Assembly (NCBI GenBank): GCA_028753945.1
Contig: JAPNXP010000008.1
Location: forward strand, 4,712,001 to 4,776,000
Reading direction: 5' to 3'
Origin: Hexactinellida sp. DTS-2022
Lineage: Eukaryota > Porifera > Hexactinellida
Length of the DNA stretch: 64,000 nt
The notes under the pieces were generated by a model, which saw only the letters and a list, made by a program, of their open reading frames with translations, did no database searches and was not told where the DNA came from. This document shows positions 29,434-63,658 of this stretch, piece after piece. Both the position numbers and the translations under genes were made by a program. Within the stretch, counting starts at the first letter, position 1, and every line of letters starts with the position of its first letter.

Positions 29434-31085
29434 ATGAGGGAAATTATTCATGTTCAGGTCGGCCAATGTGGCAACCAGATTGGAACAAAGGTATGTATCA
29501 TAGTTATCCATTACTACAAAAAAACTAGAAATATTCTGTATAGTCTTACTTATATTATGAAAGTTATAAGAACACACAGTAACACTGTTTAAACCTGACC
29601 CTAGTGCATCTTAACTTGTTATATGAGAATATAATCATACATTCAAAAAAGTTTAAATGCCAAAATTAATTATGAGACCACTAAGTTAATGTTTATATTT
29701 GGAGGATCAGAGCCACAGTTCAGTATAAGAATATATAACATGTTCAATATTACGTAGTAGCAATGACTGTTTACTATGTTACAATTCGATTTTAGTTTTG
29801 GGAGGAAATTGGCTCGGATCATAACATTGACAGAACAGGAGTATTCTATGACGATAGTGATAATCCTGAAGATCAGGAGTTAATACCACTTAGGCGAGAG
29901 CGTCTCAATGTGTACTATAATGAGGCACAAGGAGGCAAGTACGTGCCAAGAGCCATCCTTGTGGATTTGGAACCTGGTACCATGGATGCAATAAAAGGGG
30001 GGCCTCTAGCAAATTTGTTCCGACCGGATAATCTTATCCACGCACAAAGCGGTGCTGGTAACAATTGGGCGAAAGGTCACTACACAGAGGGGGCTGATTT
30101 GGTGGACAGAGTTGTTGATGTGCTTCGCAAGGAAGCAGAGGGGTGCGACTGTATGCAGGGGTTCCAACTGACCCACTCCCTGGGAGGGGGCACTGGGTCC
30201 GGTCTGGGCACCCTCCTGATCGCCAAGATAAAGGAGGAGTACCCCGACAGGATCATGATGTCGTTCAGTGTCGTGCCTTCCCCCAAGGTGTCGGACACGG
30301 TTGTGGAGCCCTACAATGCTGTGCTGTCGACTCACCAGCTGATCGATAACACCGATCAGACATTCTGCATTGACAACGAGGCTCTCCATGATATTTGCAA
30401 ACGAGTACTAAAGCTTGAGAAAGCCAACTACACAGAACTGAACCATCTGATTTGCTGTGCAATGTCAGGTGTCACCTCGTGTCTCCGTTTCCCGGGACAG
30501 CTGAATGCGGATCTCAGGAAGCTGGCCGTTAACATGGTGCCCTTCCCGCGTCTCCACTTCTTCATGCCCGGATTCGCCCCTCTGGTGTCCGCAGACACCA
30601 AGAGCTACCAAGCCGTGTCGGTGGGAGAGCTCACACATCAAATGTTCGATTCCAAACACTGCATGGCTGCTTGCGATCCTCGTAACGGGAAATACCTGAC
30701 AGTAGCCGCCATTTTCCGTGGGAAAGTAGCCATGAAGGAGGTTGACGATCAAATGGTTGCAATGCAGAGTAAAAGTGCAGCTTATTTCGTGGAATGGATT
30801 CCATCCAATGTGAAAACAGCTGTTTGCAACGTGCCACCGAAAAACTTGAAAATGTCCTCCACCTTCATCGCCAATACAACAGCTATCAAGGCACTGTTCG
30901 AACGATTGATCGAACAGTTCAACAAAATGTTCAAACGCAAGGCTTTCCTGCATTTCTACACTGGAGAGGGTATGGACGAGATGGAATTCACAGAGGCTCA
31001 GGCAAACGTTAACGACATGATAACAGAATACCAGCAGTACGAAGAGGCGACTCTTGATGATGGGGATGGGGATGATGATGATTAA
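29434..31085 (+). CDS. Beta-tubulin, divergent (copy 2)
   Basis: Exons 29434-29490 ([19 protein letters not shown]) and 29796-31085, 448 residues. From [20 protein letters not shown] on it is almost identical to copy 1. Differences cluster in the N-terminal loop ([20 protein letters not shown]) and in a few places such as TKNSAYF versus SKSAAYF. The acidic tail is DDGDGDDDD. The enlarged H1-S2 loop is about two residues longer than in copy 1. That segment faces the microtubule lumen and adjoins lateral contacts in known structures, so lattice properties may differ (inference). Intron position and phase match copy 1. Confidence 0.95.
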
Positions 31086-47265: not shown

Positions 47266-48166
47266 ATGTCCGAAAATAATTCAACTGAAACGACACCAAC
47301 GGAAATAGCAATAGAACCGACAGAAACAATAACAACAACAACAGACATAGCAATAGAACCGACAGAAACAATAACAACAACAACAGAACTGGAATCAATC
47401 ATTATGGAACAAAACGGGAATCAGTCTGTATTGAGTCAACAGCCTCTTATGAATGGACGGTCGCACTCTAATGTTCTAACAAACGTACGAACGATTAGCT
47501 ACAATACTCAGGTGGATTGGGGAAGAAGACAAAATGATTTCACTTGCGTTAACTGTAAGGAAGAAGTGGTAAGGAATTGTTGTGCAAACTCTTACAAGTA
47601 AATCTCTTAAAAAACTCACAAGTAAAAAATTAATTAATTAATAAGTAAAACTCTTAAAAAATACAAATCCTTAAAAAATCGCTCGATTTTATGGTTTTCC
47701 ACGGATTTCTATAGATAAATGCCTTAAATAGTTAAATTATATTGTACGAGTTATTTTCATTATTTGTACACAAATGCAACTTTATTAAAATCTCTAAAAT
47801 CTCGAATATGAATTATTTAAGAGGTTCCTTATATGTAGACGGTCTATAAAGCTCATACAAAATAAGCAACAAATTTGTGTCAATGGGTAATAGTATTTAA
47901 GTCAAAAAGTGGTCTATTTATAGACGATTTAAGTTATTTCTTAATTAAACTCCCCTCTATTTCTCTAGGTATCTCAAATAGAATTAAAAGTTGGAAATTT
48001 GAACTGGGTAATGGCTGCCGTTTGTATTTTGTGTTTATGTTTTTGTTTTTGTTGGATTTGTGTGCCATGTGGCATAACCCCACTTTTCATGGACACTTTT
48101 AAAGATATAAACCACATATGTCCAAATTGTGGATACGTTAATGGAACGAAGAAACAAATGGATTAA
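47266..48166 (+). CDS. LITAF-domain protein 1 (Thr-rich N-terminus)
   Basis: Exons 47266-47568 and 47969-48166 (phase 0), 166 residues. LITAF/SIMPLE-type proteins are monotopic late-endosomal/lysosomal membrane proteins. Two Cys pairs form one zinc site, flanking a hydrophobic segment. Exon 1: Thr/Glu-rich region with a tandem duplication (EIAIEPTETITTTT twice), then the first half-site CVNCKEEV. Exon 2: hydrophobic, unusually Cys-rich segment (MAAVCILCLCFCFCWICVPC), then the second half-site HICPNCGYVNGTKK. The intron falls immediately after the first half-site, as in four other genes of the cluster, and carries a family S element (47820-47935). Confidence 0.82.
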
Positions 48167-48368
48167 CTAATCTAATTATGTTAGTATGCATACTATATGT
48201 AGTGAGACCTTGTAGATCAATCAATTTTAATTATATTATTTGTCCCTTGTTTATACTTTCAATAGTTATGTTAATAAGTCCGGTTAATACATACACACTT
48301 ACAGTCCCTTTAAGACCTTTAAAAATCCTTATGATACTTGCCGATACGAATTTCCGGTTAATACATAT

Positions 48369-48565
48369 ACAGTCAGGTCTGCTTATTGTGAACTATTATT
48401 CGTCTGCTTATATGAAAAACTTTCTATTATATACAAGCCCTATGGTCCCAAATTTTACAACTTACATAGGGTTTGTATTAAGTTGAGTTCGCTTATTATG
48501 AAGTCTCTCTATTATGAACACAATTTTTGGTCCCTTGAATGTTCATAATAAATAACCTGAATGTA
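48369..48565. mobile_element. MITE family E, complete
   Basis: TACAGTCAGGTCTGCTTATT to AATAACCTGAATGTAT; TTATTATGAA words four times. Confidence 0.88.
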
Positions 48566-48851
48566 TAAAGTTTATATTCCCTTAAAAGCCCGTAATACGT
48601 GAAAATTAACCGTACTTTAAACTAGTTTTTAGAAATTGAAAGTTTTCCGAAAATTTAATCTCAAAAAGCTATAATTCTAGTTATAAGGAATATCTCCACA
48701 TAGCAACATAAATGGCAATAGGTATGCAGCTGCCTGACTCTTACTATGCATATCATTACAGATAGCACCACAGTGGCTGCTATTCCTTATTTAATGTGGA
48801 ACTATGATTTAAGAGATTAATCCTATTACGTTAGTGGCATTAGAAATCTTA

Positions 48852-48998
48852 TACAGTAGAACTCGGTTATAACATACCGGTTATAGTATACCTTTAACCA
48901 AGTTTATAAAGCAGTGTATTTCTATGTATGTAGGGTACACTCGGTTAGTACGTACTTATTCCATTCCCGAGAGGGTACGTTATAACCGAGTTATACTG
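48852..48998. mobile_element. MITE family F, complete
   Basis: TACAGTAGAACTCGGTTATA to GTACGTTATAACCGAGTTAT followed by ACTG; internal ACTCGGTTAGTACGTACTT. Confidence 0.88.
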
Positions 48999-49025
48999 AG
49001 TACTAATAGAATATTAAAGTATACA

Positions 49026-49265
49026 TAGAACCTCGTTAATACGAACACCAACGGACGGTAAAATTGTTCGCTTTATCCGGAGTTCGTATTAACCGGAGTA
49101 ATACCCATTGAATAGCCATTGTAGGGACCTGATTTTGTGGAACTGTTTGTTCGTCTTATCCGGAAATTCGTATTAACCGTGTTCGTACTAACGAAGTTCT
49201 ACTATAGTATACTCTCGTTAGTAGGAACACCAGGGAACCCCTTATCCGATATTCGTATTAACAGG
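49026..49265. mobile_element. MITE family A plus an adjoining A/B fragment
   Basis: TAGAACCTCGTTAATACGAA to ACTAACGAAGTTCTACTATA, then immediately GTATACTCTCGTTAGTAGGA with ACCAGGG and TTATCCGATATTCGTATTAA. Confidence 0.75.
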
Positions 49266-49518
49266 TGTTAATAAGTATTAAATACTTTGAAGGAACTGTG
49301 TATGTATTAACCGCAACTAATATTAACTGTATCTACTATAGAGATATTATACTTTAATTATTATAGACATTAGCCTGGTTTTATAATTAGTCACATTATA
49401 TAATAAGGAACTAAGTGGTGTATTGAATTAGGCACCAAATTTAGAATGCTCGCTAATTTAATGATTAATCTACCATTGTATTAATCTGTCACAATGTGAC
49501 ATAGAGTAATAAGGAAAT

Positions 49519-49707
49519 ACAGTCGACTCCGCTTAATAGGGTCAGTTTTGTTCCAGGGTAGTTTGACCCGATTAAGCGGAGGAATCTATTAACCGAAAAT
49601 ATTTTGAGTCAAACTGTAATTCTGTCCTATAAATCCTGTGAAATTTTGACCCGATTAAGCGGAGAAATCTATTAACCGGTGGCTCTATTAAGCGGAGTAT
49701 ACTGTAT
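49519..49707. mobile_element. MITE family D, complete
   Basis: TACAGTCGACTCCGCTTAAT to CTATTAAGCGGAGTATACTG. Confidence 0.92.
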
Positions 49708-49802
49708 GTAATAATGTATCCAATCGTCATTAAAATATTGAATGTTATAAACGAAGGATTATTCATAAATTAATATCAAATACAAATTAAATTATTCTAA
49801 AT

Positions 49803-50384
49803 TTAGAACACTTGTCGATGCTTGCCCATACGGCTTTTACATTTAGAACATTTGTGTACAGTATCCTTTAGATCGGAATTTAATAAAATTCCTATTGCCA
49901 ATGGCGTTGCTGGGGCGAATACAATAGCGACAGTGGCAGCTACAAGCCCGAAAGTAAGTTTTGAAGCTTTCCCGATTTTCCTTTTAGTGATGGACAGTTG
50001 TTCTTTGTTACAAGTGGCACAAAATGCCACTTGTGGCTCTCTCCCGAATACCACAGGTGTTATAATTGTTGGTGTCACATTCTCAAATGTTTCCGAATCG
50101 GACCGGCTGAATTTAGGCGGGAAAAGCGGTGAGCTCATAGCCCGTTTTCGTACTTGTGTATTTTCCGGCGGTTTATAAGCTGGAGGTTCGGCGAAACTCT
50201 GTCGCCTAACTGGTGTAGGGGATTGGAAGCCAGGGGGGGCATATGTAGGGGGGTTGTATTTGGCATTTGGGGAACAATGTCGGTCTAATTCAGGAGCAGA
50301 TGTGCTTGCTTTTCTACAGGATTCTCCCAAAGAGGATTCTCCACATTCCTGTAAAGTGGGTAGCACGTTTTTGTATGAATTCAT
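49803..50384 (-). CDS. LITAF-domain protein 2 (long Pro-rich N-terminus)
   Basis: Single exon, 193 residues; the only LITAF gene of the cluster on the minus strand. The N-terminal 110 residues are Pro/Ser-rich with PPxY-type motifs NPPTYAPP and EPPAYKPP, as in vertebrate LITAF, where such motifs bind NEDD4-type WW domains. First half-site FCATCNKEQLS, hydrophobic segment LTFGLVAATVAIVFAPATPL, second half-site VHKCSKCKSRMGKHR. Intronless, unlike its neighbours. A TATA box sits just upstream. Confidence 0.85.
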   Translation of the reverse strand: MNSYKNVLPTLQECGESSLGESCRKASTSAPELDRHCSPNAKYNPPTYAPPGFQSPTPVRRQSFAEPPAYKPPENTQVRKRAMSSPLFPPKFSRSDSETFENVTPTIITPVVFGREPQVAFCATCNKEQLSITKRKIGKASKLTFGLVAATVAIVFAPATPLAIGILLNSDLKDTVHKCSKCKSRMGKHRQVF

Positions 50385-50411
50385 ATTTAGTTTACTTAGT
50401 TATAAAAGTGT

Positions 50412-50419
50412 GTATTTAT
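50412..50419 (-). promoter_or_regulatory. TATA box of LITAF gene 2
   Basis: Minus-strand CTATAAATACAC about 28 bp upstream of the ATG, implying a very short 5' UTR. A second TATA-like CTTTTATA lies at 50401-50408. Confidence 0.5.
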
Positions 50420-51394
50420 AGCTGATAGTTAGGTTAGTAGGCTAGTGTGTAATTTGAATAGTCTGGTTTGCACTGAATAATTAATGATATTGTTCTGTCG
50501 CACACCTGTACTATGAATAGTTTCAGTTCCATTATGTAGATTGGTGTTAGCAGGCGACACTGATATAGTGGCACGGATTAATCTGCCACTTTAACCGAAT
50601 ATCTGTAGATTGGAGCAAAAGATTGATTTGTAGTAAAATACTTACTTTTTTTTGTAGCTTTATAAAATTTTAGATATTATTTACTCTCGTTAGTAGGGAC
50701 ACCAGGGGACCGTAAAGATTCGAAATTTGTATTAACAGGTGTCAATAAGTATTAAAGGCATGACAACAACAACAACAACAACAACAACAACAGTCAGTGC
50801 TTACAAATTACACGGAAGATAGTGAAATGCCATAACACTTTTTATAATTTTCAGTAATATACTAACAGTAATTAAATAAAACAACAAATCATATTTGACA
50901 AATGCTGTATAATACTGTATAATAAACTCTGTTACTTTCACAACAACAACAACAACAACAACAACAACACAGGTGTGCTACCTAATAAATGCTAGGATAC
51001 AATTCCAGTTAATTGGAATGGTTTAACCTCCTTATCGGAAATGAAATCAAGAAATAAGTAATATTCTAGGAAAGGATAGTTGCAAACATAATTTCAATAA
51101 GGATAAATATCAAATATAATTAGTGAACACGAACAAACTTAATACATACACAATATCACTTTCCAAGAGGGGTCAACCAATGTGTGACAGACCATCCTTT
51201 GTGATACAAAATGGTCCAAAAAGCGTGACATAGGAGGGGTGTCTAATTTCCTGAGATTTTGCGTTCCGTAGCATTTGAACGGAATTGTAAATTGGATTGT
51301 TATTTCCAATGCTAAAGGAAATATAGAACCCTATACAGTAGTTTATAACTTAAACTGACTTCTAGTAATTAAAGTCTCTTTTCAGATACCAAAT

Positions 51395-51583
51395 ACAGTC
51401 GACTCCGCTTAATAGAGCTACTGGTTAATAGATTACTCCGCTTAATCGGGTCAAAATTTCACAGGATTTATAGGACAGAATTACATTTTGGCTTAAAATA
51501 TTTTCGGTTAATAGATTTCTCCGCTTAATCGGGTCAAAGCAACCTGGTCCCGAGGTGACTCTATTAAGCGGAGTCGACTGTAT
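51395..51583. mobile_element. MITE family D, complete
   Basis: ACAGTCGACTCCGCTTAATA to CTATTAAGCGGAGTCGACTG, the best-preserved inverted ends of this family in the window. Confidence 0.93.
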
Positions 51584-51933
51584 GTCCGTACAATCCCTTT
51601 TTGTTCTATATTAGTTTAGAGATCTTAATACCAGGTACAGATACATACACACTTGTGCTGAATATTACTATATTATAATATGAATTATGTAAGGAGTCTA
51701 AAGTTGAGTCTAGAATTACAATAAAGGTATTATGCAAGCTATAGAATAACATGCAGGTGCATTATAGATAGCATCATTTGATTAATATTATATTTTACAG
51801 ATTTACAGAAGAAAAATAACTATACACCTGTGGATAATTAACCCGATTCAATATACTACATGAATGGTATAAAGGAATTTATAAAGTTCATTTAATTATA
51901 TTTGCCAGCTTTTGCGGTTCATATTGATTGAAT

Positions 51934-52075
51934 ACAGTCGAAACCGGTTTTTCTAACTAATTATTTGCATGGAAATAAAGTAAGAAAATCCGATAGTTAG
52001 AATAAACCGATTGAAATTAAAACAAAATTGGAATTTCTTACACATTTAGAAAAAACAGTTAGAAAAACCGGAAAT
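51934..52075. mobile_element. MITE family G
   Basis: ACAGTCGAAACCGGTTTTTC to TTAGAAAAACCGGAAATTGC; interior AAAATCCGATAGTTAGAA. Confidence 0.75.
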
Positions 52076-52744
52076 TGCATTTAATATTGGAGCTAAATAA
52101 CACTTCTCTATAAGGAACAATTTAATGTCCAAAATGTGTCCGTATATATAGCAGGTATTTGTATAGCTACCGATTAGCATGTTAGGAATTATTGATTACT
52201 TATTTTGAATGAAATCCCGCTGCTCCTAATGGAACTATATAGCTATGGAAGAATAGGCTTAACTCGCTTATATAAAGTCCTAAATCTCAAATTAACCATT
52301 CTCTCTCTATTAATATTCTAAAACTGGCACTATGCATGGTATTATTTCAGTTCAATTCGATATGATTACTTATAGAAAGCCCGTCCATTTTATAATATAA
52401 TAAATCCAGAAATAAATGGTGAAAAAAATTGACTTCTAGAAATTATACAAATATTTCCATCAATATAGGGGTTGTATAAAAATATACTGTTTGGTATATG
52501 AAGGCAACTATCCTAAATATATCAAAGCAAGTAAATAACAGTATATACATATTTGGTATCATCAAGGGGTAATTAGCGCCTAATCTTGCACCTCACAGGG
52601 AGGTTTCAATTGCCCCCCTCTAGGGGTACAGGGTACACCCATGGGAATTAAACTGCCCCTATAACGAGGTATTTGAAGAGGTGTTAACATTTTGTTTAGA
52701 TTGGAGTTATAGCTGATATCTAGATTGTTACGGTACCCTGGGGC

Positions 52745-52895
52745 GATGTCCCATTGGTTAAACTAACCACTCTATAATCCTATTGGTTAAACTAACCTCT
52801 CTCTATAATCCTATTGAAGTGGTCAACAGCAGCTAGCCATTCTATTGGCTAGCGCTTTGACAGTTAAAGTGCTCATCTCTCTCTGCTATAAATAG
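52745..52895 (+). promoter_or_regulatory. Strong promoter with repeated CCAAT boxes and a TATA box
   Basis: About 30-bp tandem units, each with CTATTGGTTAAACTAACC (inverse CCAAT), occur two and a half times at 52750-52818. Another CTATTGGCTAGCG is near 52844. TATAAATAG is at 52887-52895. This is the most elaborate promoter-like block in the window, yet the first ATG after it (52981) opens only a four-codon frame unless spliced. Confidence 0.6.
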
Positions 52896-52980
52896 ACCAA
52901 CAAACCTAGTTTGTATTTGTAGATAATTGTTTATTCTATTTGTTGTTGTTGTTTGCCGTGTATTAATTAAAAAGTTTAAA

Positions 52981-53510
52981 ATGTCTTGTAAATAATTTGA
53001 TATTGAAACTAACACCTCTATAGGTACAGTTTCAGATCGCAGGGGAATCTATTAGCCAAAATATTTGGAATTACTTATAATATATTTGCCAACACCTTTC
53101 TAATAAATATAATTCACAAGTTTACAAATTTTAGGTAATTAGTAACTAAATTGTAACTATAGAAAGCAATTAGTAACTATAGAAAGCAATTAGTAACTAA
53201 ATAAAGAGAAATTAAATAAAACTAACAGTAAAGTGCTAATTATGTTATCACAATTTGTTAGTGGGTTTAATTGTATGTAATTCAACTCGTAATACACGTG
53301 TTTGTGTTAGGGAGTAGATTAGTTGATGGAGTGAAATCTAATAGTTTGTACTTATATTTGTGTATAGTAAGTTGTATATCCCTTGGTTCATTTAGGGGTT
53401 CATTTGGGGGTACATTTGTTCCTCCTCCATTTGGAGGAAAGTTTGTTTGTTTATTAGAAGAAGGAAAACAAGAGATGGTAAAATATAAAAATAGAATTAC
53501 ACACTGTTAA
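52981..53510 (+). CDS. Tentative two-exon small gene after the CCAAT promoter
   Basis: ATGTCTT|GTAAAT at 52981-52987 could splice to an acceptor at TGTGTTAG (exon from about 53312). That keeps frame and reads SRLVDGVKSNSLYLYLCIVS, then GSFRGSFGGTFVPPPFGG, ending THC at 53510. The phase fits, but donor and product are weak. I do not recognise the protein. The alternative is a dead or non-coding transcript. Confidence 0.22.
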
Positions 53511-53644
53511 GAATAACAATACTCTGAGAGATGATTGGTTGTTGTAAACATATAAATTCGATGATTTAATTGGCTGTTTAGAGTTTTCTAGAGTATAATT
53601 ATAGGATTTGATTTGTTAAAAACCGAAAAGTGCTTGGGAATTGC

Positions 53645-53890
53645 ATTACACACACAAAATTTAGTCATTTTACTGGGAATTATTATACGTATTTCGTTTT
53701 TAATATATAATCCAATATAATTATATGTGTAATCGTACAAATAATATTATTCATATTAAAGCCATTGCTTGATGATACACACGAAATTTAGTCATTTTGC
53801 TGGGAATTATTATATTTCTATATTAACAGAATCCACTATAATTCAATGTGTAATCATACAAATAACGTTATTAAAGCCATTGCATGATGA
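53645..53890. repeat. Tandem duplication of about 120 bp
   Basis: TTTAGTCATTTTACTGGGAA and TTTAGTCATTTTGCTGGGAA start two units. Both end with ATTAAAGCCATTGC(T/A)TGATGATG. Confidence 0.85.
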
Positions 53891-53973
53891 TGTATTCAAA
53901 ATCGCGATTATGTCAGAAAAGTGAAGCTAGAATAAATAAGAGAAATTACATACCAAACTAGGATAGTCATATA

Positions 53974-54147
53974 CAGTAGAAGCTCGTTAATACGTACTCG
54001 ATTAATACGAAATTCCGGTTATTACGTACACTATTTCAGTCCCTTTCAAAGCCTTTTCAGTACAAATGATATTGGCTAATACGAATTCAGGATTAGGCGA
54101 ACACATTATGACGGTCCCCTGGTGTTCCTACTAACGAGGTTCTACTA
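53974..54147. mobile_element. MITE family A
   Basis: ACAGTAGAAGCTCGTTAATA to CTACTAACGAGGTTCTACTA. Confidence 0.88.
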
Positions 54148-54537
54148 GGGATTTATATAACATATTAATAACTTATAGTATAACATACATTGGGAATTTT
54201 AAACAACCTGGTTAATTCTCTATTTATGGATAGGAGATAAAACAGAACTCTTATAGAGACTATAATGCGCATTAGGAATGTTATATTCTGGCTTCTTATA
54301 AGAAATCGAGCGGGATTTGTGAGATTCAGCATTTAACATTAGCTAATAGGAATTTGTAACTAGCATTTATAACTAGCAAATGTAATTTACCTGGACATAG
54401 TATATTTATAAACTTAATTAGGTTTAATTTATAAAGTATAACTAGTCTATTGTAATTCTAATAACTTCAAAAGCTTCATATATAAATTGTAGCATAGCTC
54501 AAATAACCTCAGAATTTGTTGACTTCTCAATATAAAG

Positions 54538-54546
54538 TATAAATAG
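54538..54546 (+). promoter_or_regulatory. TATA box of LITAF gene 3
   Basis: TATAAATAG about 45 bp before the ATG at 54590. Confidence 0.6.
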
Positions 54547-54589
54547 CTTAAAAGTGTCTTAATAATTAAACTAATATTATTCTCACAAA

Positions 54590-55048
54590 ATGAATACAAC
54601 TCGCCCGCAATACCTCAAAATACCGAAATTCCATCGCGAAACATTTAGGGACACATTAATCATTATAAGCCCTAGTAACGGTACAACACCAATGGAATTA
54701 ATAACAACAACATTATCCCCCGGAGTGCTCTCATATTGGGAGGAGGAGGAGAGAGAGGTGTGGACACCAACACCTACTAACTTCCGGTGTCGCGAGTGTA
54801 GGATAGAAGTCACCTCTGAGGTCACTTTTGTTAACGGGAAAGCAACAATTACCGCGTGTCTAATTATAGTAGCAATAATAGGCTTGTTAGCAGTGGTAAC
54901 TTTAGGCGGGAGTTTGCTGTTACTGCCGATAGCGCTAATTCCATTGGTTGTTAGACGCTGGAAAGATGTTAGGCATAAGTGCCCGGGATGTAAAATGCCA
55001 CAGGGATTGTTTCAACGGAAAATATGGAAAAGTCAGGTTATTGGGTAG
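54590..55048 (+). CDS. LITAF-domain protein 3
   Basis: Single exon, 152 residues. The N-terminus lacks PPxY. First half-site FRCRECRIEVTSEV; long hydrophobic segment (ACLIIVAIIGLLAVVTLGGS followed by LLLLPIALIPLVV); second half-site RHKCPGCKMPQGLFQRK. The hydrophobic stretch is long enough to dip into or span a membrane. Intronless. A TTG microsatellite follows the stop at 55070-55145. Confidence 0.85.
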   Translation: MNTTRPQYLKIPKFHRETFRDTLIIISPSNGTTPMELITTTLSPGVLSYWEEEEREVWTPTPTNFRCRECRIEVTSEVTFVNGKATITACLIIVAIIGLLAVVTLGGSLLLLPIALIPLVVRRWKDVRHKCPGCKMPQGLFQRKIWKSQVIG

Positions 55049-55069
55049 TGGTTTATAGGTTTTATATTT

Positions 55070-55108
55070 GTTGTGTTGTTGTGTTGTTGTTGTTGTTGTG
55101 TTGTGTTG

Positions 55109-55141
<33 letters not shown>

Positions 55142-55145
55142 GCTG
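55070..55145. repeat. (TTG)n/(TTGTG)n microsatellite after LITAF gene 3
   Basis: TTGTTGTTGTG-type run. Confidence 0.9.
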
Positions 55146-55279
55146 TTGTTGTCACTTATAATTATGTTTTGTTGTGTTGTTTTCAAAATACATTGCTTGG
55201 TAAAATAAATATATATTGGGACAGAATTGCTTAAGAATAGTTAGTTCTCATGGCCATGGTATTTCTTATGTATTATGCA

Positions 55280-55400
55280 AGTACAGTGGATGCCGGTTAT
55301 AACTTATAAGAACATCGTCGGGAACTGCATATAATGTTCTTATAACCGGCATAATTACATAGGGTATATGGCAACCGTTTTCGAGTATAATGTTCTTGTT
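55280..55400. mobile_element. MITE family C, right-truncated
   Basis: TACAGTGGATGCCGGTTATA, CGTCGGGAACTGCATATAAT, TTCTTATAACCGGCAT and GGCAACCGTTTTCGAGTA; inverse orientation. Confidence 0.78.
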
Positions 55401-56718
55401 TGCTTCTAACTTTGATAGTAAAAGCAAATTAGATTTTAAACTGAATTTTCCATTAAGATGATGGCTGAATAACAGGTCATGAAATAAACCTCATTATTTC
55501 TCATTATCATTTCATTCCTATAATATTAGATTTTGAAACGAATTATAATTTTATGTTGTTCCTAATCATTATATGAATTTAGGAGATGACAATGATGCCA
55601 TTTGGTAACAGTAACATTCGAATTTAATAATTGCATTTCTTATAAAAAAAACATATCAAATTATTATTAGTACGTATAATAAATAATTAAATTGTCTGAC
55701 TAAACAAATTAATTATGCAATAAAAACTTTATCTAATTAGCACAAATTCACCACAATTATGGGTTATATAATATAATAATTTTAATACGTAATACATAGT
55801 ACATATTTTGAATGCTTATACAGTAATTTTAATGTATGTTGTAATAAATTCTTTGTTGTATTAGCTAATATTATATTAGAGTTAGTTACATTTTAATGAA
55901 TTAATAGTTATAACTTAATTCCAATAGATAACCGACATAATATACATTATTGTATAGGTTATATTATAGAACCTTATTAGATCATTAAAATTACATATTT
56001 CTAAATTACATATTGTCTTACGATTAGTCAAAATAGTGTCATAATAACAATGCAGTTAGTTCCAATTACAAGGTGACTTATTATGATCGCAGGGGATCAA
56101 AATACCCTCTTATAAGAGTGGTCCCTTATCCGATATTCGTATTAACAGGGGGAAATAAATAAGATTAGAACTTAATAATAAAAATTTTAATGGACAAATT
56201 TCCCAATTTAAAGATAAAGTGAACTCTCGTTATAACAAGTCGGATATAACGAAGGAATTTACAGGTCCCAAGCACTTCATTATAAGTTATAACGAGAGTT
56301 AACTGTCTGTATAAATAATGTGTTATTTATTGTTCAATATACAAATACTAAATACCAGTCGAATATTAGCTTGGTCATTACAAATATTGAAAATACAGAT
56401 TATTAATTTGGAGAATTTTATTCAAATCAATTGCCCAAGTTTGGAAAACAATGTAAAACGGATTTTGCGAATGGCAAATACTAGATAACAGTCAACGATT
56501 AAAATTTCAATAAGGTAGTGAAACTGTGTTATATAAGGCAATGTTACTTTTGCCATAAGAATAAGCAATGAATAAATATTCAAATAGTTAATATTCATAA
56601 AAGTGTTAATATGCATAGGATACAATTATATATTCAAATCTGTATATAAAACGGAGAAAAGGTACAAAGAACAAAATACAATATTTCAATCACTCAATTA
56701 CAACATCAAAATATCCAA
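55401..56718. other. Very AT-rich spacer
   Basis: No coding block. A short inverted element lies at 56218-56306 (AACTCTCGTTATAACAAGTC / TAAGTTATAACGAGAGTTAA, family H) and a B-type fragment near 56096-56150. Confidence 0.55.
56218..56306. mobile_element. Minimal MITE (family H)
   Basis: GTGAACTCTCGTTATAACAA and TTATAACGAGAGTTAACTGT are inverted; internal CGGATATAACGAAGG. About 89 bp. Confidence 0.7.
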
Positions 56719-56768
56719 ATGGCTGCTGAGAATAAACAACCTAACAGCGACAAACTTATTACGAAAAG

Positions 56769-56801
<33 letters not shown>

Positions 56802-57009
56802 TATAGAAGGACCAGACGATGTGTTTATAAGCGAACCACCTTTCTTGAACCAATCCGATTCCAGGTTTGCACTTTATTTTCCTGACAAAGAGGACTCTGG
56901 TTGGCGGGCTTACTTCTGGAAGTTAGTTGGTTCCTTATGGAACTATGGCAGGTCACATTCCAGTGTGACAAGTACTGACATTGCTGGCATTGGCATTATT
57001 GACTTTTAA
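56719..57009 (+). CDS. Unknown small protein with polyQ and EGPDDVF motif (copy 1)
   Basis: 96 residues. Sequence order: MAAENKQPNSDKLITKR, then about ten Gln encoded only by CAA, then IEGPDDVFISEPPFLNQSDS, RFALYFPDKEDSGW, RAYFWKLVGSLWNYGRSHSS and VTSTD. A convergent neighbour (57255-57524, minus) shares EGPDDVF, a YFW-x-x-V-x-x-x-W block and a Ser-rich STAST/VTSTD end, so the two are paralogues. I recognise no known family. The short amphipathic W/F-rich segment could be membrane-interacting. It sits inside the LITAF cluster. Confidence 0.55.
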
Positions 57010-57254
57010 TATTTCAAAACTGTTTATACATTCAATGTTAAATATTTTGTTGTTTTGAAAACATGAATATTATTTGGAATTGGAATCTACTTTTGTAATA
57101 AGGGACACCAGGGGACCGTCGTAATATGTTCCCCTTATCCGATACCGGTCTTAACAGGAATAACCCCATTGAAAAATGAAAAGTTAACTAAAAGTTTATT
57201 TATTCTTGTTAAAATATGCATTGAAAAAAGTAAACACAAAATGTAAACAATTAT

Positions 57255-57524
57255 TTATTTTTTATCCGTGCTAGCTGTGCTAGAACTTCTGCTCGGCCAA
57301 ATGTACTCAACAAAACCCCAGAAATACGATTGACTCGATTCCCAGATGGTTTTCTCATTTCTCCGACTAATATCAAACCGAGAGGGTACATCTACTCTAT
57401 GGAAAGTTTGTGTCTCGAGAGGTGTCGAATCTTCTTCAAACACGTCATCAGGTCCTTCTAAGTCCCCTAGATACCACGAGTCTCGATTGGAATGTGTATT
57501 CTCAGTTATAATCTCTGTGCTCAT
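57255..57524 (-). CDS. Unknown small protein with EGPDDVF motif (copy 2)
   Basis: 89 residues from the ATG at 57524. Order: MSTEIITENTHSNRDSWYLG, DLEGPDDVFEEDSTPLETQT, FHRVDVPSRFDISRRNEKTI, WESSQSYFWGFVEYIWPSRS, SSTASTDKK. Shared with the gene at 56719: EGPDDVF, the R-F-x(6-8) region, YFW-x-x-V-x-x-x-W and the Ser/Thr end. Tail-to-tail with copy 1, about 245 bp apart, with an A/B MITE fragment (57102-57155) between. A TATA box lies 55 bp upstream. Conservation between two diverged copies supports real coding. Confidence 0.6.
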   Translation of the reverse strand: MSTEIITENTHSNRDSWYLGDLEGPDDVFEEDSTPLETQTFHRVDVPSRFDISRRNEKTIWESSQSYFWGFVEYIWPSRSSSTASTDKK

Positions 57525-57578
57525 TATGAATGTCAAATTATATTTGCTGTTGAACTTATATTAATATAAACTCGCCGC

Positions 57579-57586
57579 TATTTATA
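57579..57586 (-). promoter_or_regulatory. TATA box of the minus-strand EGPDDVF gene
   Basis: Minus-strand GGTATAAATAGC, about 55 bp before the ATG. Confidence 0.6.
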
Positions 57587-57589
57587 CCA

Positions 57590-58660
57590 TTTAATGAACC
57601 GTTGAGCCATAATAGAAATGACGTATATAAAAAGAGATACACTCATTGGCCAGTATTATTTCCTTTCGAGCGAAGAGGTATAAAGATCTTCTCAGAATAA
57701 AGACAGGAATTAATTTCAGTTTTATAATTTACTTAAGTTGGCGAATTCTTTGGGAGAATTGACAGTCTTCTAAATCCAAATTTGGTCGAACTGTTATACA
57801 ATTTCTTACTTTTATAGCTGTAACAAGTGCAGTATAATTATTCTTCAAATATACTTGCAAATATTTAAGATAAGACTTTCAAAACAGTGCATTTATGGGG
57901 GTTTAATTTAAGATAGAGGAAATCAATCATATAAACGCATCAGACAACCAAAATTAGATATAGTATAGCTGTGATATGGCCATAATTAAACCTGTCTATG
58001 TTAAGTATGTTGAAAACGTAAATTGTTAATCATTAAGTCAAAACCCTCACTTAGAAAGTGTATACGAATTACGTATTAAATACACTCGACGTAATAAACA
58101 TATAACAAGTGAAACAGTAAAGATTAAGTTATATAGAAAGTGAAATATTTTATTATAAAATAATAATATAACTGTAAAACAAGTTAGCTTTCACAATTAA
58201 CCGATTATTGTACATCATTATCCAAATACAGTATACTATAGTAGGAACACCAGGGGACCGTCAAAACGCGTTCGCCTTATCCCGGAATTCGTATTAACCA
58301 ATATCATTTGTACGTATTGAAAAGGCTTTGAAGGGGACTGAAATAGTGTTCCTACTAACGAGGTTATACTGTATTATGTATTATACATGATACGCGTTAA
58401 AACAAGTTATATAACAAGTGACTCCTATTAATACGAATAATAGATCAGAGAAGCACATTCCTACGGCCCCCTGGCGTATCTATAGTACCCTCTTACAAAG
58501 TAGAATAAATGTAAGCTAATTGTAATTATATCTAGTTTCATAATAACTTAATAAAGAGACATCAAGTTTGAATGCATATATTACCCAACCATGCTTGAGA
58601 GTACAATCAGCAGTTGAATAGTCCCAATATAGAATAGTATAACTAACTTATAGTTAGAAA
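57590..58660. other. AT-rich spacer with one MITE
   Basis: No coding block; MITE family A at 58228-58373 and a weak family-B-like scrap near 58420-58490. Confidence 0.55.
58228..58373. mobile_element. MITE family A, inverted
   Basis: ACAGTATACTATAGTAGGAA to CTACTAACGAGGTTATACTG; AAAGGCTTTGAAGGGGACTG inside. Confidence 0.85.
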
Positions 58661-58987
58661 ATGGAAGATCCTATCTTACAGAAAGAGCCGCCGCCCCAAT
58701 ATAACGGAGCCCCTCCCGTGTGCCAACAGCCCCGGAAATGGGGAGAAATATCCGAGAGGATTATATGTGTGAACTGCCAACAAGAAGTGGTGACTCGAGT
58801 TGAAAATAAGATCGGTTTAGGATCCTGGGTGGCAGTCGGAATAGTGGCTTGGGTGATGCTAGCTTTTGGTCTGATACTCTGCGTTCCATTCGCCCTGTTT
58901 GGTCTCCTGCTAGGGTTTGCAAAAGATAAGGTGCACGTATGTCCCAACTGTAACTTTGTGAATGGGGAGAAGAAAGCGTTCCATTGA
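58661..58987 (+). CDS. LITAF-domain protein 4
   Basis: Single exon, 108 residues, closest in overall layout to short animal LITAF/CDIP-like proteins. N-terminal PPxY motif in EPPPQYNGAPP; first half-site IICVNCQQEVVTRVE; hydrophobic WVAVGIVAWVMLAFGLILCV; second half-site VHVCPNCNFVNGEKKAFH. Intronless, whereas the downstream copies have an intron after the first half-site. Confidence 0.88.
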   Translation: MEDPILQKEPPPQYNGAPPVCQQPRKWGEISERIICVNCQQEVVTRVENKIGLGSWVAVGIVAWVMLAFGLILCVPFALFGLLLGFAKDKVHVCPNCNFVNGEKKAFH

Positions 58988-59089
58988 TTGTGTATTTGTA
59001 AACTCTAGTCTACTGTTTTGTTATAGTTTTTGTTTGTTTTATGATACTTTCGTTACTATCAATAGTACAATATAACTTGTAAACTAATT

Positions 59090-59212
59090 AAACAAAACAG
59101 ACACACAAACACACCAACCAACAACCAAACAAACAAACAAACAAACCAACCAACAAACAAACACCAACCAACAAACACCAACCAACAACCAAACAACCAA
59201 ACAAAAACACAT
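59090..59212. repeat. CAAACAAC/CCAACCAACA simple repeats
   Basis: Degenerate AACAAACAAACCAACCAACA units directly upstream of LITAF gene 5, probably within its promoter. Confidence 0.85.
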
Positions 59213-59243
59213 ATAATCTAGTATACTCCATTAGCAGTCATAC

Positions 59244-59849
59244 ATGAATACACACCAAACCCCGATTGCACCACTACAGGCACCCTACCCCACCTCCCAA
59301 AGTGGGACCTTAAGACAATACGGATTCCCAGATAATCAAGCGTTCATACAAATGAACAAACACTCACAGAGAGTGTTATGTCCCTCCTGCAAAACAGAAC
59401 AGGTATGTAAACAACAACAAATATCTAATTTGTTTACGTTTATACAGTAGGCTGTTATAAATAGGAACATACATAAGGAAAATATCGGTTAAGGAGTACA
59501 AGGTTAATTCCCCTAGCCTATACTAATGCATGCAAGTGACTCCGGTTAATACGAATTCAGGATAATACGAACATATTAAGACGGTCCCCTGGTGTTCCTA
59601 TTAACAGAGCTACTGTATTATATTATTACATTCCTTTAGAACACAGTGATTATCCTTCAAGTTGGATTAACGAATGTATTAATGGGCCTGCTATTCCTGC
59701 TAGTAATCTTCGTATACTCTATCTACATCATTCCAATGCTCCTAATCCCGGTTGCTATGCTACCGTGCTGCATGAAAACTATAGCGGACACCAGACACTA
59801 CTGTCCCAAATGCAGGAATTTCATTGGGAAAAGGAAGTTTATATATTAG
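59244..59849 (+). CDS. LITAF-domain protein 5
   Basis: Exons 59244-59402 and 59640-59849, phase 0, 122 residues. Exon 1 ends with QMNKHSQRVLCPSCKTEQ, nearly the same as the partial gene at 63467 (QMNKEPQRVICPNCRTER). Exon 2: VILQVGLTN, hydrophobic VLMGLLFLLVIFVYSIYIIP, then RHYCPKCRNFIGKRK. The intron contains a complete family B MITE (59444-59618). Confidence 0.86.
59444..59618. mobile_element. MITE family B inside the LITAF gene 5 intron
   Basis: ACAGTAGGCTGTTATAAATA to CTATTAACAGAGCTACTGTA; takes up most of the 237-bp intron. Confidence 0.85.
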
Positions 59850-60048
59850 GCCCAGGATTTCTCTATACCCCCCCCCTGAAATTTTTATTTGAAAAAAAGG
59901 ACCCCCTGATTTAATTAACTATAGCGGAATGTAAATTACCCCCCCCCTGAGGTAAACTCTAGATCCATCACTGATTAGGCTTGTTTGTAATCCGTTGTAT
60001 TAATTAACAGTTATTTTTGTGTTAGTTCAGTTAACAGTTCTATTTAAG
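59850..60048. other. Short spacer
   Basis: Two CCCCCCCCTGA stretches (59870 and 59940) about 70 bp apart form a small direct repeat; no gene. Confidence 0.5.
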
Positions 60049-60102
60049 TCAGGCCTTAATACAGTAGCTATTACAATCAATAGCTACTGTATTAAGGCCT
60101 GA
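60049..60102. repeat. Perfect 24-bp stem hairpin
   Basis: Arms 60049-60072 and 60079-60102 are exact inverses (TCAGGCCTTAATACAGTAGC...), with a 6-nt loop. Confidence 0.93.
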
Positions 60103-60153
60103 CAGTAATATTGACAATAGTAGTTAGTAAAGATGTATATTAGTGGAACTGAA

Positions 60154-60349
60154 AACAGTCAGGTCTGCTTATTGTGAACACTATTCGTCTGTTTAATATG
60201 AATTTTTATTATTATGAACAAGCCCTATGGTCCCAAATTAACAACTTACATAGGGTTTGTATTAAGTTGAGTTCGCATATTATAAAGTCTCTCTATTATG
60301 AACACAATTTAGGTCCCTTGAATATTCACACTATAAGACCTGACTGTAT
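60154..60349. mobile_element. MITE family E, complete, just upstream of LITAF gene 6
   Basis: ACAGTCAGGTCTGCTTATTG to TATAAGACCTGACTGTA. It ends about 25 bp before the ATG at 60375, so it probably forms part of the promoter or leader. Confidence 0.88.
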
Positions 60350-60374
60350 TTACTGTACTAATGAGTAGTTAGAT

Positions 60375-61019
60375 ATGTTAGAGTATCCTGACTCTCCTCC
60401 TGCATACAACACAGTGTATCCTAGTAACGCAACTGATCAGTCAGGATTCATAAGGGGACCTTACTCTGTGTATAGCAGGGGTATGCTAGTGTTGGGAGAT
60501 AATGAGACATTGGGGGATGATCCGAGGGTGTTGACATGTCCCAACTGTCTTGTTAACCAGGTAAGATACTTATGGAGTATTTGTAAACAACAACACAACA
60601 ACAACAACAACATTAACAAATATATACTCATGTACATATGTTGTTGTTGTTGCTGTTGTTGTTGTTTGATTGATTGATTGTTTGATTGTTTGTTTGTTTT
60701 GTTTGTTTTGTTTGTTTGTTTGTTTGTTTGTTTGTTTGTTTGTTTGTTTGTTTGTTTGTTTGTTTGATTGTTTGTTTGTTTGTTTGTTTGTTTGTTTGTT
60801 TGTTTGTTTGTTTTATAGATGTCAATAGTCCAGAGAGAGACGGGAAGAAAGAACTTGATTGTAGTTCTGTGCTTTTTCTCAATCTTAGTGGCTACAATGA
60901 TGTTTATTGTACCGTTTATTTGTTTACCTTTGTTGATTATTCCTCTATATATTGATAAGTTCAAACACACAGAACATATTTGTCCCAGCTGCAACCATCT
61001 TATTGGAATAAATAAATAA
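60375..61019 (+). CDS. LITAF-domain protein 6
   Basis: Exons 60375-60560 and 60819-61019, phase 0, 128 residues. PPxY motif in SPPAYNTVYP; first half-site LTCPNCLVNQ; second exon MSIVQRETGRKNLIVVLCFF, hydrophobic ATMMFIVPFICLPLLIIPLY, then second half-site EHICPSCNHLIGINK. The intron is almost entirely (TTG)n and (TTTG)n, ending in TTTTATAG. Confidence 0.86.
60588..60812. repeat. CAA, TTG and (TTTG)n microsatellites filling the LITAF gene 6 intron
   Basis: CAACAACAAC at 60588, TTG run at 60640, then an uninterrupted TTTG array to 60812. Confidence 0.93.
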
Positions 61020-61023
61020 ATAA

Positions 61024-61560
61024 AAAGAATCAATGTCAATGAATTTGTAAACAAATATGCATTAAATTTGTTGTTTGTATTATAACAAGTCCTTATCATG
61101 TCAATAGATTTAGTAGGAACACCAGGGGACCGTCTAAATATGTTCCCTTATCCGATATTCCTAATAACAGGTGTTACTAAATTGAGTTTTAAAGTGAACT
61201 ACAAATAGTGTCCGAAAATAACATACTATACGTATTAACTGTAAATGATAAACCTTGTACGTAAATCTGATGTTTGCAAATATATAAAGTATAAGTACGC
61301 CCTTTATATATAACGTATATGCTTATTCAAATCGAGTTTGTATTTATAAGGTCATTATATAATCCATTATGCACATAATACGTAATCGAGCAATTAGTAT
61401 AAATAGAATCAGTGTCAATGAATTTGTTAACAAATACTGTATTTACTAAACTTATATTTTATTTATTAACAAGTCCTTATCATGTCAATACATTCAGTAG
61501 GGGCACCAGGGGACCGTCTAAATATGTTCCCTTATCCAATATTCCTAATAACAGGTGTCA
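61024..61560. repeat. Duplicated flank downstream of LITAF gene 6
   Basis: 61024-61165 and 61402-61560 share AATCAATGTCAATGAATTTG-type sequence, AACAAGTCCTTATCATGTCA and ACCAGGGGACCGTCTAAATA, then TTCCTAATAACAGGTGT. The second unit has no LITAF exon before it, so it may be the remains of a duplicated gene's 3' flank. Confidence 0.75.
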
Positions 61561-61598
61561 ATAAGTATCAAAAGGTAGCGAAAAAGTCACATTATATG

Positions 61599-61790
61599 AA
61601 ATACAAACCTTCAGAAAGTGAACACCCTGGGGACTATAAAAAAAGGTTCACTTTTGAGAGGTGTTCACTTTTCATGATTTATGATAACGTATGTCTAAAG
61701 CAATGGGGGAAATTTGTGATCAAGAAAAGTGTTCATATTTTGGAGTTGTTCATTTCTTGAAGGTGTTCACTTTTGGAGGTTTTACTGTAT
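61599..61790. mobile_element. MITE with 'AAGTGTTCACTTTTGGA' words
   Basis: AACCTTCAGAAAGTGAACAC at the left and GTGTTCACTTTTGGAGGTTT at the right are inverted and end in TACTGTA; GTGTTCACTTTT-type words occur four times. Confidence 0.75.
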
Positions 61791-61831
61791 AACATTAACT
61801 CTACAATTAACATTAGTTGATTAGCCTAGAA

Positions 61832-62945
61832 ATGTCACAGTACCCTAGCCATGTACCCCAGGGGTACGAAAGTGGACCCCCTCCCCCTGACTATGCCTCT
61901 ATAGCACAAACAGACCCAAAGGGACACAGATATGAGACAGCTGTTAAATTCTGCGTTAGTAAAGAGCGCCAAACAATAGAGTGTCCAAACTGCATGGTTA
62001 CACTGGTGAGAGATAGGAATTTAGTAGATATTGGATATCTACATATATGTTAGATTTTGTTGTTGTTTGTTCTAATTTATTGAGGAACTGGTAAGAGCTA
62101 AAGACTTTAAATTTGGCAGGGGGGTGGGAAATACTGTATATAGAAATTTATTCAAATATCTAAGAAAAATATTCACATCTTCCCCCCCCCCCCTAAAAGG
62201 TGACAAAACTTAAACCAATTAAATGTCCCACTATACATCATAAAATTCCTTAATTGGTAACATAATAACATTCCTTTGTACCGATATGGTAACCGTGTGT
62301 ACCATAGGTTCCAGTGGCGGTACAGCCTCAGTTTTCAGCGGAAAATCAAGAAGTCGTTTTCGGGAAGATTCCTCAGAAAATAATTTGCACGAATTGCAAT
62401 ACAGAACAGGTGAGTGCTCCTAGTTCCCTTGAGAGTTCGAATTTAATTTCAAACACTAACAGGATATTATCCAGGAGCGGGCCATACGCCTAGGGCGGAT
62501 AAATTGGGATATTTTTGCGTTTAGGAGCGCGAAAACTGCCGAAAGTCCCCATAGAATAATACAAAACAAACCTTTTAGGCGTACAACATTAATATACTAG
62601 TGACCTTAGGAGTGTTTAATTCTAGTCCTGTATAATACCCTGAATACAAACCCTTGTAATTATAGATTTATTGTTAAGTTTCAGTTGTATTCAAAATTGG
62701 AATAAAATATTTTATTCTCTCCTCTCCTCTAGGTTACAATTGTGAAAAGGAAGTTTGGAGATTTGAACTATTTGGTGTGTTGGTTAACAGCATTTATCCT
62801 CTTTATAATGGGGATATTCCTCATTATACCGTTATTACTAATTCCACTGGCAGGCATAGCATATTGCATACCGGCGCTTAAAGATGTAAAGCACGTGTGT
62901 CCCAACTGTAAATACACTAACGGAGTGTATAAACAGATAGGGTGA
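61832..62945 (+). CDS. LITAF-domain protein 7 with a duplicated first zinc half-site
   Basis: Exons 61832-62005, 62308-62409 and 62733-62945, all phase 0, 162 residues if joined. Exon 1: PPxY (PPPPDYASIA) and IECPNCMVTL. Exon 2: VPVAVQPQFSAENQEVVFGK, then a second first-type half-site IICTNCNTEQ. Exon 3: VTIVKRKFGDLN, hydrophobic AFILFIMGIFLIIPLLLIPL, then KHVCPNCKYTNGVYKQIG. Exon 2 has no start codon. Either the protein holds three CxxC pairs, or exons 1 and 2 are alternative partners of exon 3 (exon 1 could also join exon 3 in frame). An AGGAGCG repeat sits in intron 2. Confidence 0.75.
62463..62642. repeat. Family I 'AGGAGCGCG' repeat in LITAF gene 7 intron 2
   Basis: TTATCCAGGAGCGGGCCATA, TTTAGGAGCGCGAAAACTGC and GTCCTGTATAATACCCTGA match 14125-14322. 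Confidence 0.7.
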
Positions 62946-63246
62946 GACCATAAAGCTGTTGTTGTTGACTGTCTGTATTAGTGTTTGGTTTATACTACAC
63001 GTATACATTTTGTATTCTCAATAAGTACTGTGCTTTTTATAAAAATATTCTTTCTTTCAAATATATATTCGTTGTTTAGTAAACAATAATATCAACAATA
63101 ATATTCGAACTCTAAAGGGGAAAATATATTTGGTCGAATTAGCGAGTGTTCGAACTAACGGATGTGACTGTATACTCTCGTTTGTTTCACAAAATATTAA
63201 AGACATTAATTTAAGGGGATACATACAAGTTTATTGTAAATTGAAA

Positions 63247-63303
63247 TACAGTAGAACCTTGTTATACTAATGCCTGGTGTTCGTACTAATGAGGTTCTAC
63301 AGT
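63247..63303. mobile_element. Smallest family A MITE (about 57 bp)
   Basis: ACAGTAGAACCTTGTTATAC to CTAATGAGGTTCTACAGTGT: essentially two ends with almost no interior. Confidence 0.8.
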
Positions 63304-63466
63304 GTTAAGTAGTGTAATAGGAGAGCTCAGTTTATGGGATTATGTAATACCAAATAGACAGTATAAGCACGGGATATAAAGCAACGCACCTATAGTTCCA
63401 ATAACAGATATATAGAGTTACATGCCATCAGTATAAGAGAGCGCCTAACTTCATTGCAATAGAGCA

Positions 63467-63658
63467 ATGGAGAAAGACCAATTGATTCCTAGGAACAACG
63501 ACAATGCGTACGCGCGTCCTATGGGAACAGGGGGCACTTTAACTGGGTCGTACCCCCTCGTGGTGTGTCCCAGCTTTCAACAGCTGGGGTACACAGGAGC
63601 GATTCAGATGAATAAGGAGCCACAAAGGGTCATATGTCCAAACTGCAGAACGGAAAGG
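63467..63658 (+). CDS. LITAF-domain protein 8, first exon only (window edge)
   Basis: 64 codons from ATG to a donor (AGG|GTAGGT): MEKDQLIPRNNDNAYARPMG, LVVCPSFQQLGYTGAIQMNK, EPQRVICPNCRTER. The end matches LITAF gene 5, so these two are recent paralogues. The second half-site exon is expected past position 64000. A family F MITE follows in the intron. Confidence 0.8.

Follow-up and report, generated by a model that had tools for sequence, protein, structure and literature searches.

The LITAF array in the window and beyond it

The 64,000-nucleotide stretch of the genome of the sponge Hexactinellida sp. DTS-2022 that we analysed as a whole (the window, C17:4712001-4776000; positions below are those of the window unless a contig is named) contains the left part of a tandem array of genes for LITAF-domain proteins. 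One member of this array, g07 (61832-62945), seems to combine exons of two different kinds of paralogue.

A first-pass annotation of the window had described eight genes with the LITAF plan at 47266-63658, and indeed there are eight. All of them (g01 to g08) match the PF10601 (zf-LITAF-like) profile above its curated cut-off of 23.8 bits, with scores of 41.8 to 57.1 bits; the profile search that had been proposed as a check thus supports the family in 8/8 cases. Ten proteins were scored in this way: the eight window genes, with g07 as two splice forms, and g13, which lies outside the window and reaches 62.3 bits. The view of a cluster of eight in about 16 kb has to be extended, because the window edge cuts the array and these genes are only its left half. 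The run begins in the window and ends beyond its right edge, at 47266-79843 in window coordinates, and holds 15 loci in 32.6 kb. Across the 112.4-Mb genome (18 contigs) the profile has 20 matches above the cut-off, namely the 15 of the C17 run, a pair near 625 kb on C6, and single genes on C6, C1 and C8. With 15/20 genomic matches within one run, the clustering is not a matter of chance. Gene models were made for 20/20 loci. Two weak matches below the cut-off, on C4 and C12, where no open frame has an HxCxxC downstream of a CxxC, were excluded from the 20. The single match of g04 to a solved structure (expectation value, E, 0.68) was rejected.

In the proteins of the array a short N-terminus leads to a first zinc knuckle, which a hydrophobic segment separates from a second one. 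Both cysteines of the CxxC half are invariant in 17/17 exons (g12m and three dispersed genes omitted), the histidine and both cysteines of the HxCxxC half are invariant in 19/19 aligned loci (g12m omitted), and a hydrophobic stretch between the two, judged by eye, is present. The N-termini differ, as had been noted before: PPxY, present in about half of the loci, occurs in 4/8 window genes and 11/20 loci overall, leaving 9/20 without it, P[ST]AP occurs in 1/20 loci, and g01 is Thr-rich.

Gene structures and intron positions

The splice sites given here are predicted from the DNA by a scan that took phase-0 donors only, and the splice scores, derived from the cluster's own sites, are rough. In the window, g02 (49803-50384, reverse strand), g03 (54590-55048) and g04 (58661-58987, both on the forward strand) have coding regions without an intron, just as the first-pass annotation had it. 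The remaining window genes are all on the forward strand. Exon 1 of g01 (47266-47568) encodes the Thr-rich N-terminus and CVNC and ends in a phase-0 donor, and its exon 2 (47969-48166) encodes the hydrophobic segment and HICPNC. The corresponding exons of g05 (59244-59402 and 59640-59849) carry CPSC and HYCPKC, and those of g06 (60375-60560 and 60819-61019) carry PPAY with CPNC, and HICPSC. Exon 1 of g08 (63467-63658) has CPNC, while its exon 2 lies just past the window edge at 64008-64229.

Taken over the genome, the coding region is intronless in 6/20 loci (g02, g03, g04 and three dispersed genes). Seven loci have two exons (g01, g05, g06, g08, g09, c6a and c6b), and six, all to the right of the window, have three (g10, g11, g12m, g13, g14 and g15), in which a start exon, proline-rich or otherwise, is followed by the CxxC exon and then by the HxCxxC exon. 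Outside these classes stands g07, with two CxxC exons ahead of one HxCxxC exon.

In the gene models the introns between the CxxC and the HxCxxC halves are in phase 0 in 14/14 cases and interrupt the same codon position, after the fourth codon past the CxxC (CxxCxxxx|). It had been claimed that five window genes have a phase-0 intron directly after the first CxxC; the five genes and the phase stand, but the position is four codons further on. The related statement that each zinc half-site is an exon of its own in these five genes holds insofar as the intron separates the halves, with the qualification that g07 holds two CxxC exons. Because it is common to all intron-bearing members, the intron four codons past the CxxC is probably inherited from the ancestor that they share. 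For human LITAF, intron positions were looked for in the open-access literature and not found. Low-scoring donors include those of g01, g08 and g14; the first base of g10 exon 2 was set by eye, and this acceptor is outside the 20 that were scored.

Growth of the array

The data support growth of the array by duplication of the ordinary kind, both tandem and segmental. An inverted pair is formed by g12m and g13, which agree at 87% of 1507 aligned bases. Exons 2 and 3 are 98% identical, the introns 96-97% and the upstream region 90%, and the repeat-rich first exon is 73% identical in the nucleotide alignment and 84% when aligned by codons. The g08+g09 block has a two-gene copy on C6 (c6a and c6b) in which the gene order is kept. 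Of the possibly lineage-specific expansion suggested from the window, the part that is supported is expansion by tandem duplication, given 15/20 loci in 32.6 kb, the inverted pair and the block copied to C6. Further short repeats are found among or within the LITAF genes, some of them also on C6 (48370-48567, 49511-49708, 51394-51591, 59474-59618 and 60156-60350).

The g07 locus

Exon 1 of g07 (61832-62005) encodes PPDY and CPNC and resembles that of g09 and c6b. Its local alignment scores are 134 with g09, 89 with c6b and 45 with the next best, and a genome search with it at E <= 1 returns itself, g09 and c6b only. Exon 3 (62733-62945, HVCPNC) is closest to the three-exon class instead. It scores 197 with each of g11, g12m and g13, followed by g14, g15, g10 and c1s, a dispersed gene (129), with c6b at 111 and g09 at 105. 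In terms of residue identity, it agrees with g13 at 36/64 positions and with g09 and c6b at 19/68 and 21/68, whereas g09 and c6b agree with each other at 44/68. Immediately before exon 3 stands exon 2 (62308-62409), a second CxxC exon (CTNC) that lacks a start codon and has a weak acceptor. It is most like the three-exon class, with scores of 72, 69 and 68 for g12m, g14 and g13, and 63 and 62 for g08 and g02. Hence the exons of a single locus are closest to two different paralogue classes. They are flanked by phase 0 on both sides in the gene models, which is compatible with a fusion.

Intron 1 (62006-62307) changes its affinity along its length. For the first 49 nucleotides, shuffled sequences do as well as the real ones in 0/500 cases for g09 and 2/500 for c6b, and in 110/500 or more for eight other introns. 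The last 82 nucleotides resemble the A-B introns of g13, g12m and g11 (0/500 each); the counts are 16/500 for g14, 31/500 for g09, 44/500 for g15 and 489/500 for c6b. The 5' and 3' parts of the intron thus match different classes, and a breakpoint appears to lie inside it, between segments whose borders were picked after the alignments had been viewed. A dispersed repeat of about 170 bases lies in the same intron at approximately 62055-62225; its other copies, including those in introns of g12m and g13, are 83-87% alike. The copies in the corresponding introns of g12m and g13 are 87% like the one in g07, and in the genome 40 matches out of 935 candidates were scored, itself included.

In our opinion, these observations are best explained if g07 is a fusion inside a phase-0 intron of an otherwise ordinary tandem array, with a g09-like first exon and g12/g13-like CxxC and HxCxxC exons, and we put the probability of this at about 75%. 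Since both ends of the exons are in phase 0, one intron, once broken, could be rejoined to another with the frame kept. In g07, exon 1 and the start of the intron of a g09-like two-exon gene would have been joined to the end of an intron and the two following exons of a g12/g13-like three-exon gene. It would be the one visible case of such joining in the array and is our best indication that the parts of these genes can be mixed. We base the fusion on exon and intron similarity, because the tree tests are not significant for the last exon. Placing the last exon of g07 with g09 and c6b is not rejected by the approximately unbiased test (p-AU 0.131, or 0.293 with g06 added). Placing exon 1 within the three-exon class gives a borderline p-AU of 0.060, and making it the sister of exon 2 gives 0.042.

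These tree results weigh against a fusion, and so do several other points. The dispersed c1s scores higher with exon 3 than g09 and c6b do, and a slowly changing last exon could explain part of the similarity of exon 3. Exon 2 is nearly as good a match to g08 and g02 as to the three-exon genes. The end of the intron also matches g14, g09 and g15 fairly well, g12m and g13 are near copies and hence not independent matches, the segment borders were set once the alignments were known, and the repeat occurs genome-wide. Lastly, g07 could be dead.

The last point leads to a different account, in which nothing works at this locus. Exon 1 would be what is left of a g09-like gene after the loss of its last exon, 62308-62945 would be a three-exon remnant without its head, and the two would lie side by side with no protein made from either. 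It is true that no HxCxxC match is present between the two CxxC exons, and that no proline-rich start exon other than exon 1 was found ahead of exon 2; in 62006-62307 we found neither a start exon for exon 2 nor a last exon for exon 1. The exon 2 acceptor ranks 19th of the 20 cluster acceptors scored, and the exon 1 donor 13th of 21. On the other side, the three frames are open, the sites are GT/AG, the phases match, and the exon 2 donor ranks first of 21. In addition, nonsynonymous divergence (dN) of exon 1 is below synonymous divergence (dS) in the comparisons with g09 (0.40/1.18) and c6b (0.27/0.66), estimates that include the other lineages. On balance we consider two such dead remnants rather unlikely.

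If we return to the fusion and ask what it would produce, the extra CxxC exon with its weak acceptor might often be skipped, and the chimeric product would then have a single complete zinc site; such partial skipping is a guess from the predicted splice sites. Against PF10601 the form with exons 1 and 3 scores 51.8 bits and the form with exons 1, 2 and 3 scores 53.5 bits, where the match uses exon 2 rather than exon 1. One may go further and imagine a working fusion whose transcripts carry either or both CxxC exons with the one HxCxxC exon, so that alternative first zinc half-sites and N-termini would be used, and phase-0 introns would allow new pairings of an N-terminus with a membrane half by recombination. 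We find this elaboration very doubtful.

Do the two half-sites have separate histories?

The first-pass annotation went beyond a single locus and suggested mix-and-match of exons across the cluster, to be examined with trees of the two halves. For the 20 loci, we built one tree from 22 columns of the CxxC half and another from 80 columns of the HxCxxC half. Each half rejects the best tree of the other (p-AU 0.012 and 0.003). However, a joint tree, which was built from the two halves together and so leans towards acceptance, is acceptable to either half (p-AU 0.093 and 0.238). Because the joint tree is accepted, we do not take the conflict of the best half-trees as evidence of shuffling. The two trees have three groups in common: g05/g08/c6a (supports 91 and 97), g06/g09/c6b (92 and 91) and g12m/g13 (86 and 95). 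Their disagreement lies inside the first two. In the first-half tree c6a pairs with g08 (75) and in the last-exon tree with g05 (97), while the partner of c6b is g06 in the first-half tree (89) and g09 in the last-exon tree (98). No supported group of the three-exon genes appears in either tree, and a group of them that includes the last exon of g07 is accepted (p-AU 0.545). Over 190 pairs, the identities of the two halves are correlated (Mantel r 0.658, p 0.0001), and the biggest disagreement is the pair g08/c6a.

General mix-and-match is thus not shown, with the low power that 22 residues provide. As a general mode it has the acceptance of the joint tree and the Mantel correlation against it; what stands of the suggestion is one locus, g07, that looks like an exon-level fusion, and one pair, g08/c6a, whose exons are strongly unequal, neither of them proved by the trees. 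On the reading of the first-pass annotation, the array would have diversified by repeated exchange of half-site exons, through general exon shuffling or exon-wise gene conversion. The phase-0 symmetry of the exons, the g07 locus itself, the mutual rejection of the best half-trees and the change of partner of c6a all point in that direction, against which stands the joint tree that satisfies both halves. The pair g08/c6a, to which we now turn, bears on it as well.

Uneven divergence between g08 and c6a

Where g08 and c6a can be aligned, the upstream stretch and exon 1 are each 87.5% identical and the downstream stretch 83.3%, as against 50.6% for the intron and 57.3% for exon 2, and exon 2 falls below the 3' flank with p 1.1e-5 when sites are treated as independent. 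Genome queries with the upstream stretch, and with the exon end plus the downstream stretch, found the places of g08 and c6a only. Within exon 2, the first 30 nucleotides are 80% identical, the hydrophobic middle 44% and the last 81 nucleotides 65%. There are three readings of this pattern: later homogenisation of exon 1 and the 5' flank, exchange in exon 2, or diversifying selection on the membrane part of exon 2.

For exchange speak the low identity of exon 2 between much more similar flanks, the flank queries that lead to these two places only, and the middle of exon 2, where 8/13 other intron-bearing loci nominally exceed c6a in similarity to g08 (the intronless loci are not in this comparison). 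On the contrary, over the whole of exon 2 c6a remains the best genomic match of g08, and a last-exon tree that makes g08 and c6a sisters is not rejected (p-AU 0.237). We looked for a sequence that could have donated the last exon to g08 or to c6a and identified none; among the middles of the 13 other intron-bearing loci, none is more than 56% like that of g08. The exons of g09 and c6b, which belong to the same block, show no difference (p 0.55). Considering all this together with the trees, we regard repeated exchange across the array as improbable.

Diversifying selection on the membrane segment, rather than exchange, could account for the excess divergence of exon 2, since its ends remain alignable, the excess lies in the hydrophobic middle, and c6a is the best match of g08 over the entire exon. 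However, synonymous divergence is high too (dS 1.63 in exon 2 and 0.37 in exon 1, the former value being near saturation and dependent on the alignment), and selection at the protein level does not predict this. Moreover, the intron is equally unlike, which points instead to a later homogenisation of the 5' flank and exon 1, and the upstream stretch of g09 and c6b is only 43% alike. Selection is therefore a possibility that we take seriously while leaning away from it.

Other features in and near the array

Two small proteins are encoded inside the array at 56719-57009 (forward strand) and 57258-57524 (reverse strand) and, by eye, have GPDDVF and W..YFW stretches in common. At E 1e-5, Pfam gives no match for either. 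When the second was searched against the genome, it returned itself and a weak match on C13 (E 0.27), and the first was not among its matches. Further left, tubulin genes at 25136-26422 (reverse) and 29796-31082 (forward) form a head-to-head pair. The dispersed c1s, an intronless LITAF gene, has a T-box gene about 5 kb away (C1:11732699-11738852); a T-box profile has 9 matches above cut-off in the genome, on four contigs. A Wnt search gave 0 hits and is uninformative, and such markers indicate at most an animal or a close relative of animals.

Comparison with known LITAF genes and chimeric genes

LITAF domains occur throughout eukaryotes and have undergone multiple expansions, particularly in animals; most of the proteins have a proline-rich N-terminus followed by the LITAF domain, and human LITAF binds zinc and is monotopic on endosomal membranes (PMC5142333). 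By homology, the proteins of the array should act as adaptors at endosomal membranes, via PPxY. In symbiotic bivalves, LITAFs are among the changed immune families (PMC9993606). Expansions and clusters of LITAF genes are already published, and the part of the present case that is worth testing is the g07 fusion. Phase-0 exons that split a zinc site are a natural place to see whether recombination in introns can pair new domain halves. If g07 is transcribed, two genes would have contributed to its zinc site; otherwise the array would be an ordinary tandem expansion. Among the matches listed in searches of the open-access literature, none dealt with a chimeric LITAF gene or with half-site exons.

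Compared with the LITAF/CDIP1 family as described for human LITAF (PMC5142333), the array differs in its Thr-rich g01 and in the 9/20 loci without PPxY, and g07 may hold a second first-half knuckle. In copy number the set is comparable to those of Caenorhabditis elegans and Branchiostoma floridae, for which 14 and 11 LITAF genes are given, with 4 in human (PMC8122590, Table 1). Several LITAF-like paralogues close together are also known from Anopheles gambiae, where four of six such genes lie within about 50 kb on 3R (PMC3475675). In gene number and spacing, the sponge array differs from that cluster by its 15 loci in 32.6 kb; it has two intron classes next to genes without the intron. The closest parallel to g07 itself is perhaps offered by the chimeric genes that arise by tandem duplication in Drosophila yakuba (PMC5460883), in which, as proposed here, adjacent paralogues are joined into a new combination of exons; unlike them, g07 is deduced from the sequence of one assembled genome.

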